Notes under the pieces: generated by a model
The model's database searches: none
The model's input: only the letters and a program-made list of their open reading frames with translations
Told to the model about the DNA's origin: nothing
Program-made: the position numbers and the translations under genes
From: Geothrix sp. 21YS21S-2
Lineage (GTDB): Bacteria > Acidobacteriota > Holophagae > Holophagales > Holophagaceae
DNA length: 64,000 bases
Assembly (NCBI RefSeq): GCF_030846775.1
Contig: NZ_CP132910.1
Span: 1,460,001 to 1,524,000 of the forward strand
Direction of reading: 5' to 3'
Shown here: positions 53,146 through 55,720 of the stretch, piece by piece
Position numbering within the stretch: position 1 is the stretch's first letter
Layout of the letters: every line of letters begins with the position of its first letter

Positions 53146-53703
53146 TCACCCCTTGGGGGCTTCCCCGGTATCGAGGTTCTCCAGGTTCTGCAGCGAGATC
53201 ATGGGCGCGTGGATCTCCAGGTTGACGCCCTCCTCCACGTGGATCGCGGCCACCCGGCTCGCGGTGGGGGCCGTGTACTCGTTCTGCATCTTCATGGCCT
53301 CGAGGATCAGCAGGGGCTGCCCCTCCTCCACCACGTCCCCGGGCTGCACGAGGAGCTTGAGCACCTTGCCCGGCATCAGGGCGATGATCGTCTTGGCCTC
53401 GCTGCGCTTGCTCCGGGCCATGGCTTCGGCCAGGAGGGTCTTGCGGGGGTCCTGGAGCGTGAACTCGTAGGCCCCGTCGTACGTGGCGGCCCGGAAGCCG
53501 TGGAGGTCCGGGTCGGGATTGCGGATGCGGTCGATGTTCACGCCCACGCTGCGGCCTTCCATGATGATGGAATAGCTGGAGCGCTCCACCTTCACGATGT
53601 CCAGGGGCACCTCCTCCCCGTCCCAGGTCATGACGGTGGTGCCGCGGCGGCGGTAGATCTCGAGTTCAACGGTCTGGTCGGCGACGACGAGGGTTCGTTT
53701 CAT
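53146..53703 (-). CDS. biotin carboxyl carrier protein (acyl-CoA carboxylase type)
   Basis: A 185-residue biotin acceptor. The C-terminal biotinyl domain (about 103-175) has IIALMPGKVLKLLVQPGDVV and ILEAMKMQNEYTAP, with biotin Lys138. The N-terminal part (1-100) is beta-rich and resembles the extra domain of acyl-CoA/methylmalonyl carboxylase carriers. It lies 10 bp downstream of the unusual biotin carboxylase. No carboxyltransferase gene is present in the window. Confidence 0.88.
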   Translation of the reverse strand: MKRTLVVADQTVELEIYRRRGTTVMTWDGEEVPLDIVKVERSSYSIIMEGRSVGVNIDRIRNPDPDLHGFRAATYDGAYEFTLQDPRKTLLAEAMARSKRSEAKTIIALMPGKVLKLLVQPGDVVEEGQPLLILEAMKMQNEYTAPTASRVAAIHVEEGVNLEIHAPMISLQNLENLDTGEAPKG

Positions 53704-53713
53704 GTTCTGTACC

Positions 53714-55213
53714 TCAGAGCCTATTGAACTTGTTCAGGGACTTCCAGGCCTGGCTGGTGGGGACGCAGTCGTTCCTGGGGGTGGGCTGCTGGGCCCGGCG
53801 CTCCTCCATCTCCAGCTCGTCGAAGAGCGCGGCGGCCACGGCGAACTTGAGGCTGGGGCCCACGGCCTTCTGCTTCCACCACGGATGCGCCAGGATCCCG
53901 GTGTGGAGGTCGCCCTTGAGGAACTGCTTGTTCTCCAGCAGCGTCTTGAAGAAGGCCACGTTGTTGCGCACGCCGCCCAGGCGCATCTCCATGAGGGCCG
54001 AGTGCATGCGCTGCAGGGCCTCCTGGCGCGTCTGGCCCCAGGTGGAGATCTTGGCCAGCAGCGGCGCGTAGAAGGGACTCATCTCCCAGCCGAAGTAGAC
54101 GCCGCTGTCGTTGCGCAGGTTGTGCCCCTGGGGCGAGCGCAGGTACTGGATCCGGCCCGAGGAGGGCGCGAAGTCCCGGTCCGGGTCCTCGGCGTTGATG
54201 CGGCACTGGATGGCGTGGCCCCAGAAGGGGATCTTGTCCTGGGTGAGGGGGAGCTTCTTGCCCTGGGCGATGTCGATCTGCCACTTCACCAGGTCCTGGC
54301 CCGTGATCCACTCCGTGACGGCGTGGCCGCCCTGGATGCGGCAGGTCATCTCCAGGAAGTAGTGGTTGCCCTCCTGGTCCAGGAGGAACTCCACCGTGCC
54401 GATGCCCACATAGCCCACCGCCCTGGCGATGGCCACGGCCTGCTCGCCCAGGGTCCGGCGCAGCTCGGGGGAGACGCCCGGGGACGGCGCCTCCTCGCAG
54501 ATCTGCTGGAAGCGGCGCTGCACCGAGCCCTCCCGCTCCCAGAGGTAGACGTAGTTCCCGTGGGCGTCGCCGGCGATCTGCACCTCGATGTGGCGGGGGT
54601 GGATGAGGGCCTTCTCCAGGTAGACCCGCTCGTCCCAGAAGGAGAAGATGCTCTCGCCCTTGACCCGGGGCAGCGCCCGGCGCAGGTCCCCGGCGGTCTT
54701 GACCAGGCGCATCCCCTTGCCGTCCCGGCCCAGCACGGGCTTGACCATCAGGGGATAGCCCATCTTGCGGGCCTCGTCCAGCAGCTCCTCGTCGCCCATG
54801 GTCTCCTGGATTCCGGGCAGCACGGGGCAGCCCACGGACTGGGCGATCTCCCGGGCGGTGATCTTGTTGTCCATCTTCTCCAGCACCTCCGCGCTGGGGC
54901 CCAGCCAGGTGATGCCGGCGTCCTGGATCAGGCGCACCGCCTCGGGGTCCTCGGCCAGGAAGCCGTAGCCCGGGTGGATGGAATCCGCCCCCGTCTTCCG
55001 GCAGGCCTCGATGAGCTTGTCGGCGCGCATGTAGCTTTCCCGCGCGGGCGTGGGACCGATGGGCACGGACAGGATGGCGAGGCGCACGTGCATGGCCCCC
55101 CGGTCCGAATCCGAATACACGGCGACCGTGGGGATGTCGATCTCCCGGCACGTGCGCATGATCCGGCAGGCGATTTCGCCTCGGTTCGCGATGAGCAATC
55201 TGGTGACGGGCAT
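53714..55213 (-). CDS. biotin carboxylase homologue with substituted bicarbonate-site residues
   Basis: A 499-residue ATP-grasp protein. The N-terminal RLLIANRGEIACRIMRTCRE, HPGYGFLAED, RHIEVQIAGDAHGN and CRINAEDPDRDF (Arg338) are ordinary. But the motif normally written EMNTRxQVEHPVTE reads EMTCRIQGGHAVTE, giving Thr290, Gly295 and Gly296 in place of Asn, Val and the catalytic Glu. The glycine loop is LGRDGKGM rather than GGGGGRGM, and QRRFQQ replaces QRRHQK (loss of the Lys). The start MPVTRLL has GAGGAAGAGG before it. ATP-binding may persist while carboxylation is doubtful. Confidence 0.9.
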   Translation of the reverse strand: MPVTRLLIANRGEIACRIMRTCREIDIPTVAVYSDSDRGAMHVRLAILSVPIGPTPARESYMRADKLIEACRKTGADSIHPGYGFLAEDPEAVRLIQDAGITWLGPSAEVLEKMDNKITAREIAQSVGCPVLPGIQETMGDEELLDEARKMGYPLMVKPVLGRDGKGMRLVKTAGDLRRALPRVKGESIFSFWDERVYLEKALIHPRHIEVQIAGDAHGNYVYLWEREGSVQRRFQQICEEAPSPGVSPELRRTLGEQAVAIARAVGYVGIGTVEFLLDQEGNHYFLEMTCRIQGGHAVTEWITGQDLVKWQIDIAQGKKLPLTQDKIPFWGHAIQCRINAEDPDRDFAPSSGRIQYLRSPQGHNLRNDSGVYFGWEMSPFYAPLLAKISTWGQTRQEALQRMHSALMEMRLGGVRNNVAFFKTLLENKQFLKGDLHTGILAHPWWKQKAVGPSLKFAVAAALFDELEMEERRAQQPTPRNDCVPTSQAWKSLNKFNRL

Positions 55214-55288: not shown

Positions 55289-55720
55289 ATGACCCTAAGG
55301 TCCATAATCTGTACCCTCCTGGTCCTCTCCTTGGGCGCCTGTGGGCGCAAGGGGGATCCCATTCCCCGCACCCGCGCGGCGCCCGGCCCCTGCGTCATCC
55401 GCTGGACCGCCCACCGCGTGCTGGAGGTGCGCCTGCCGGTCCTGGACGCCCGGGGCGGCGGCCTGGTGGGCGTGGAGAAGGTCCGCGTCTTCCTTCTCCC
55501 CCTGGGCCCGGGCCGCCCCACGGCCCAGGAGGTCCTCGCCCGGGGCGAGGTGGTGCTGGAGCGGAGCCGCCCGGATCTTCCGGGCCCCGGCGGGATCCTG
55601 CAGCTGGACATGCGCCAGATCGGCAGGCCGTCCGGTTGGGTCGTCGCCGCCGCCGTGCGCGTCGGCAACGTGGTGGGCGTTCCCAGCGAGCCGGTCGCCT
55701 GGCTGGATCCGGCGATCTGA
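55289..55720 (+). CDS. small lipoprotein
   Basis: A 143-residue protein with a clear lipoprotein signal: MTLRSIICTLLVLSLGACGR, lipobox LGAC with Cys18, then GRKGDPIPRTRAAP, the short motif often found after the Cys of small outer-membrane lipoproteins. The rest is a predicted beta-sandwich of fibronectin type (VRLPVLDARGGGLVGVEKVR, GILQLDMRQI). No defined family. It stands alone between the divergent biotin carboxylase and convergent coaBC. Confidence 0.82.
   Translation: MTLRSIICTLLVLSLGACGRKGDPIPRTRAAPGPCVIRWTAHRVLEVRLPVLDARGGGLVGVEKVRVFLLPLGPGRPTAQEVLARGEVVLERSRPDLPGPGGILQLDMRQIGRPSGWVVAAAVRVGNVVGVPSEPVAWLDPAI

Follow-up and report, generated by a model that had tools for sequence, protein, structure and literature searches.

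In the genome of Geothrix sp. 21YS21S-2 (5.25 Mb, one contig; closest named relative found, Holophagaceae bacterium UBA692), a 64-kb stretch of DNA, referred to here as the window, encodes a homologue of biotin carboxylase (BC; an enzyme that ordinarily spends ATP to attach CO2 to biotin), P0002, next to a biotin carboxyl carrier protein (BCCP), with which it is probably cotranscribed (Table 1). The BC reading frame was unbroken, and a scan for promoters and terminators found none. The domains Biotin_carb_N, CPSase_L_D2 and Biotin_carb_C all scored above their Pfam gathering cutoffs and were arranged in the order typical of BCs. P0002 fell below the NCBIfam accC equivalog cutoffs (520.1 vs 626.5 for TIGR00514; 524.4 vs 597 for NF006367), and no NCBIfam BC model reached its cutoff among the matches listed. 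An AlphaFold model (pLDDT 87.3, pTM 0.83) predicted an ordinary BC fold, which matched the Escherichia coli BC structure with biotin, bicarbonate and ADP (3g8c) with a TM score of 0.95 (target length); the E. coli E296A mutant (3g8d) was also among the best structural matches. On the plus strand, divergent from the BC gene, a small lipoprotein reading MTLRSIICTLLVLSLGACGRKGDP is encoded at about positions 55291 to 55720 of the window, and many BC orthologues had a similar open reading frame in this position next to them (cluster c2).

Table 1. Features of the locus and the candidate carboxyltransferase (positions refer to the window unless stated otherwise)
Feature	Position	Strand	Basis and remarks
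Degenerate BC homologue P0002	53714..55213	-	499 aa; ATG at 55213, stop ends at 53714; Pfam domains and AlphaFold model
Remodelled glycine loop LGRDGKGM (canonical GGGG[KR]GM)	54710..54733	-	Alignment and motif position
QRRFQQ (canonical QRRHQK; H236F, K238Q)	54503..54520	-	Alignment and motif position
EMTCRIQGGHAVTE (canonical EMNTRxQVEHPVTE; N290T, T291C, V295G, E296G)	54311..54352	-	Alignment and motif position
FYAPLLAK, D382A (canonical YDPM[IL]AK)	54050..54073	-	Alignment and motif position
BCCP	53146..53703	-	185 aa; PF00364, 1.9e-14; starts 10 bases after BC stop
EAMKM biotinylation motif of BCCP (lysine 138)	53287..53301	-	Motif position; conserved in all BCCP orthologues aligned
Unlinked PccB-like carboxyltransferase	own genome C1:3432873-3434321		PF01039 family match

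Alignment of P0002 to E. coli AccC (L052) reproduced the active-site substitutions listed in a preliminary description of this DNA, namely Thr, Gly and Gly for Asn290, Val295 and Glu296, the loss of Lys238 from QRRHQK and the altered glycine loop, with Arg292 and Arg338 kept. Its statement that the E. coli numbering coincides held around the EMNTRxQVEHPVTE motif; elsewhere, numbering was off by one. The alignment also revealed A160P, C230G, T291C and D382A. Lys238, His236, Asn290 and Val295 of the bicarbonate/phosphate site are thus all replaced in P0002, as is E296, the reported general base acting on bicarbonate (PMC11077971, residues by equivalence). In the BC modelled in the same study, Mg-ADP is held by E201, Q233, E276 and E288, and biotin by R338 and D382 (again by equivalence). 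P0002 is therefore like AccC (TIGR00514; EC 6.3.4.14) in its three Pfam domains, fold, nucleotide, Mg and biotin ligands and adjacent BCCP, and unlike it in lacking E296, K238, H236, C230, N290, V295, D382 and the glycine loop and in staying below the NCBIfam cutoffs. The automatic label "acetyl-CoA carboxylase biotin carboxylase subunit" would mislead for this protein. The E. coli E296A enzyme likewise lost this one residue in an otherwise folded BC; it is a laboratory single mutant, whereas here about nine further active-site residues have changed naturally.

The same losses, including the Thr/Gly/Gly set that the preliminary description had proposed to look for in a conserved clade, were common to 12 aligned orthologues from five genera (g1, g2, g3, g6 and g7) of the Holophagaceae, whose members live in soil and sediment. 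In g4, g5, g8, g10 and g11, which are further Holophagaceae genera, the eight orthologues aligned had canonical active sites. In a maximum-likelihood tree, the degenerate BCs formed one clade (100/100) nested among the canonical orthologues, with a long stem (0.48 changes per site) and the canonical BC of G009 as nearest neighbour. Of the 93 genomes available for the class, 15 matched a DNA signature for EMTCRxQG, all within those five genera; the reversed control pattern yielded 0 matches, so the recurrence of the set greatly exceeds what chance would give. No degenerate BC was detected outside the Holophagaceae in a contig scan limited to close relatives. Sequence comparison thus indicates that the residues of the canonical chemistry were lost once, in the common ancestor of the five genera. 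Taken alone, the altered motif would speak for a sequencing error or a decaying gene. We rejected this explanation as exceedingly improbable, since the frame is intact in 12 orthologues of five genera with a single origin, as the earlier reading of an unshifted frame implied, since the signature recurs in 15 genomes, and since pairwise dN/dS values of 0.06 to 0.39 (NG86; some high-GC pairs had a low or saturated dS) place the degenerate BC under purifying selection.

Among 72 columns that are near-invariant in canonical BCs, 47 were retained in every degenerate sequence, and ten were replaced throughout or nearly so: A160 (still present in 2 of 12 orthologues), G164, G165, C230 (present in 1 of 12), H236, K238, N290, V295, E296 and D382. 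Position 296 was Gly or Ser in all 12, so that the catalytic Glu is absent throughout, and the glycine loop changed from GGGG to GRDG in P0002 and to G[RE][DHN]G across the clade. Residues K116, K159, E201, Q233, R235, E276, E288, R292, Q294 and R338 were invariant, the BC dimer residues R16 and R366 were retained, and the new residues T290, C291, G295 and A382 were fixed in 12 of 12. As far as sequence can tell, the set of residues bearing the chemistry is gone, and most of the set that holds the ligands remains. Protein divergence within the clade, relative to that among canonical orthologues, was 1.7-fold in the central domain (residues 204 to 330), 1.2-fold in the lid and 1.0- to 1.1-fold in the N- and C-terminal domains.

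These patterns bear on the main rival to the interpretation developed below, according to which a remodelled BC is still ATP dependent, with other residues performing proton abstraction and phosphate/bicarbonate binding, and serves as the BC of an acetyl/propionyl-CoA carboxylase. The invariant ligand residues, the fixation of new residues and the intact predicted fold all fit such an enzyme. It would have to work after the joint loss of E296, K238, H236, N290, V295, D382 and the glycine loop, which are otherwise near-invariant and include the reported general base (PMC11077971), and its active-site domain is evolving faster, not slower. We consider this explanation rather unlikely, though it is the rival we take most seriously.

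As first described, the EAMKM lysine of the carrier is intact in the window. A BCCP orthologue adjoined the BC orthologues examined, and the pairing of a conserved noncanonical BC with a live biotin carrier, suggested previously, is now strongly supported. Where carriers normally have APMPG, BCCPs of the degenerate clade (e.g., that at 53146 to 53703 of the window) have ALMPG or AQMPG, and 1.3S carriers have A[IV]MPG; loss of the Pro was rejected as a clade marker, as some canonical BCCPs of related families also lack it. The identified neighbours of the BC orthologues were housekeeping genes (coaBC, ileS-lspA and murD). In one genome (L093, G016:C9), a fabD gene lies ∼8 kb from the degenerate BC on the same contig, with genes for a ribosomal protein, pth, asparaginase and radC in between. 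No carboxyltransferase (CT) was encoded within the window, in agreement with the preliminary description, as all six PF01039 matches of the genome lie elsewhere. Nor was a linked CT present in any fetched neighbourhood of a BC orthologue, CT and BC being unlinked in all of them, and a CT linked to the degenerate BC was rejected.

Of the six CT family matches, one adjoins a canonical BC with its BCCP and another adjoins an MCC-like BC; the rest are AccA, AccD, the 12S subunit of a 12S-cupin-5S-1.3S operon and an unlinked PccB-like CT. Orthologues of the latter from 17 genomes were placed in a tree, and all 17 genomes also carry a BC of the P0002 orthogroup; in G013 and G021, the PccB-like CT, the P0002-orthogroup BC and methylmalonyl-CoA mutase are all absent. 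The CT tree mirrored the BC tree in that it grouped the genomes of the degenerate clade and placed G009 closest to them. The ratio of BC to CT divergence was 2.4 in the degenerate clade vs 1.2 in canonical genera; judged by sequence, the BC of this clade is relaxed while its PccB-like CT is not. In the CT, no more than 15 positions were fixed differently in the degenerate clade. One of these is equivalent to residue 422 of Streptomyces coelicolor PccB (ScPccB) and was Ile in 9 of 9 degenerate-clade CTs, Cys in 8 of 8 canonical orthologues and Asp in 12S subunits. The exchange D422I broadens ScPccB to accept acetyl-CoA, and D427I raises the acetyl-CoA preference of the Thermobifida fusca enzyme (PMC7835884). 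Broad-specificity β subunits of acyl-CoA carboxylases (S. coelicolor AccB with I420, PccB D422I) share Ile at this acyl-specificity position; their BC partner, unlike the one proposed here, is active. That the Cys-to-Ile switch favours use of acetyl-CoA is an extrapolation, as the cited studies compared Ile with Asp, not Cys. The PccB-like CT is thus a candidate partner of the degenerate BC and its BCCP. The correlations among BC, CT and gene content are not independent and count as one correlated event, because all trace to one ancestral change.

A second canonical accC, which had been suggested as a check, was found three times over: the genome containing the window has three other canonical BCs. 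Besides AccABCD, it has a second full CT-BC-BCCP locus and one that is MCC-like, and its malonyl-CoA supply is therefore independent of any complex containing P0002. One canonical CT-BC-BCCP cluster (L053, own genome C1:2837-2844 kb) has Cys at CT position 422 and lies next to a long open frame that contains a domain of the methylmalonyl-CoA mutase type. The genome further contains a complete 12S-5S-1.3S methylmalonyl-CoA transcarboxylase operon (L125:5888-9753; C1 at about 1826.9 to 1830.75 kb), in which a 110-aa cupin frame (PF07883) lies between the 12S and 5S genes, an arrangement shared by at least three genomes from two genera. A role of the degenerate BC as part of this 12S/5S operon was rejected, since the operon has its own 1.3S carrier; the only 5S-type PYC_OADA subunit of the genome sits there, and none is encoded at the degenerate-BC locus. 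Genes for a 12S/5S transcarboxylase or of the OAD_beta type occur in the genera with a degenerate BC and are missing from the sampled canonical Holophagaceae genera. In G010 (L129, G010:C172), a pair of OAD_beta genes and a pair of biotin carriers flank one CT, which suggests a doubled sodium pump decarboxylase cluster.

In G006, G016 and G024 (all g2) and in G010 (g6), by contrast with the window's own genome, the degenerate BC was the only BC found. AccA and AccD were not found in these four genomes; FabD and methylmalonyl-CoA mutase are present in all of them, and FabF in G016 and G024. This sole-BC argument rests on four draft genomes, which are 92% (G006), 94% (G016), 69% (G024) and 96% (G010) complete. 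As only the degenerate BC was present, AccA and AccD were missing and FabD was kept, malonyl-CoA would be made without a canonical BC in these organisms, which probably need it yet have no canonical ATP route to carboxylate biotin. That the protein is the sole BC in two genera although FabD remains would also suit a remodelled, ATP-dependent BC. In g8 (G012 and G020), no BC other than a canonical member of the P0002 orthogroup is present; these genomes lack AccA and AccD but have FabD and FabF, so the ancestral complex probably served as an acetyl/propionyl-CoA carboxylase.

The same gene content weighs on the suggestion, made in the preliminary description, that the protein regulates another carboxylase. 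Such a regulatory or decoy subunit would titrate BCCP or associate with some other BC or CT and thereby modulate an active carboxylase. The three canonical BCs of the window's genome and the retained dimer residues are compatible with this role, which is possible there. In the sole-BC genera it is unlikely, as the four genomes of two genera hold no other BC to regulate, and we doubt it as a general function. Plant BADC proteins are carrier homologues without biotin. As proposed for the degenerate BC, they are noncatalytic homologues that a biotin enzyme complex has retained (noted in PMC7835884), but here the BCCP retains its biotin lysine and the BC is altered instead.

Our preferred, if tentative, reading, which we hold at slightly less than even confidence, is that the degenerate BC serves as a pseudoenzyme subunit in an acyl-CoA transcarboxylase that works without ATP. 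The BC of an ancestral acetyl/propionyl-CoA carboxylase would have lost the bicarbonate and carboxyphosphate chemistry and been retained as a structural, possibly nucleotide-binding or nucleotide-sensing, subunit, forming a biotin-dependent complex with the adjoining BCCP and the unlinked PccB-like CT. Instead of relying on ATP and bicarbonate, the CT would carboxylate biotin from (S)-methylmalonyl-CoA and, aided by its changed acyl pocket, hand the carboxyl group to acetyl-CoA (overall, methylmalonyl-CoA + acetyl-CoA -> propionyl-CoA + malonyl-CoA). We infer the assembly and membership of this putative complex, the reaction together with the direction in which it runs, and the role of the BC as a scaffold. 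With more reserve, we consider it possible that fatty acid synthesis in the two genera obtains its malonyl-CoA solely from a methylmalonyl-CoA:acetyl-CoA transcarboxylase with a noncatalytic BC. The invariant nucleotide and Mg ligands lend some weight to the earlier proposal of a different ATP-dependent reaction and speak against the transcarboxylase, since by sequence they exceed the needs of a bare scaffold; nevertheless, ATP-independent transfer is favoured because it accords better with the selective loss of residues, the accelerated divergence in the active-site domain and the specificity switch in the CT.

The proposed complex would resemble the 12S/5S/1.3S transcarboxylase in ATP-free carboxyl transfer via biotin, an acyl-CoA CT and a small BCCP; it would differ in having a BC-fold subunit and no 5S partner. 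A soluble biotin-dependent decarboxylase, in which the CT would transfer the carboxyl group of methylmalonyl-CoA to biotin and the altered BC pocket would free CO2, so that methylmalonyl-CoA is drained to propionyl-CoA, strikes us as improbable. It could draw on the retained biotin contact R338, a partial bicarbonate site (R292 and Q294), methylmalonyl-CoA mutase and the propionate-type carboxyl recycling genes of the same genomes. However, genomes of the clade can already route this carbon through OAD_beta or 12S/5S systems, the biotin contact D382 is gone, and the malonyl-CoA supply of the sole-BC genera would be left unexplained. The locus also differs from Na+-pumping biotin decarboxylases, as no OAD_beta membrane subunit was found in the window's own genome.

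A family survey described the BC domain as limited to carboxylases (PMC3199775), and a search of open-licence full texts found no earlier description of an inactive, degenerate or pseudo-BC. This absence of precedent is provisional, and BCs were surveyed in depth in this class only. Metabolism has few active sites as conserved as that of BC. This clade has dismantled the site while retaining the protein, the carrier and presumably the transferase, and so offers a natural test of the roles of BC besides catalysis. The findings point to ATP-free formation of malonyl-CoA in bacteria that otherwise lack acetyl-CoA carboxylase; if this is true, malonyl-CoA, the building block of fats, would be made in some relatives without paying ATP.
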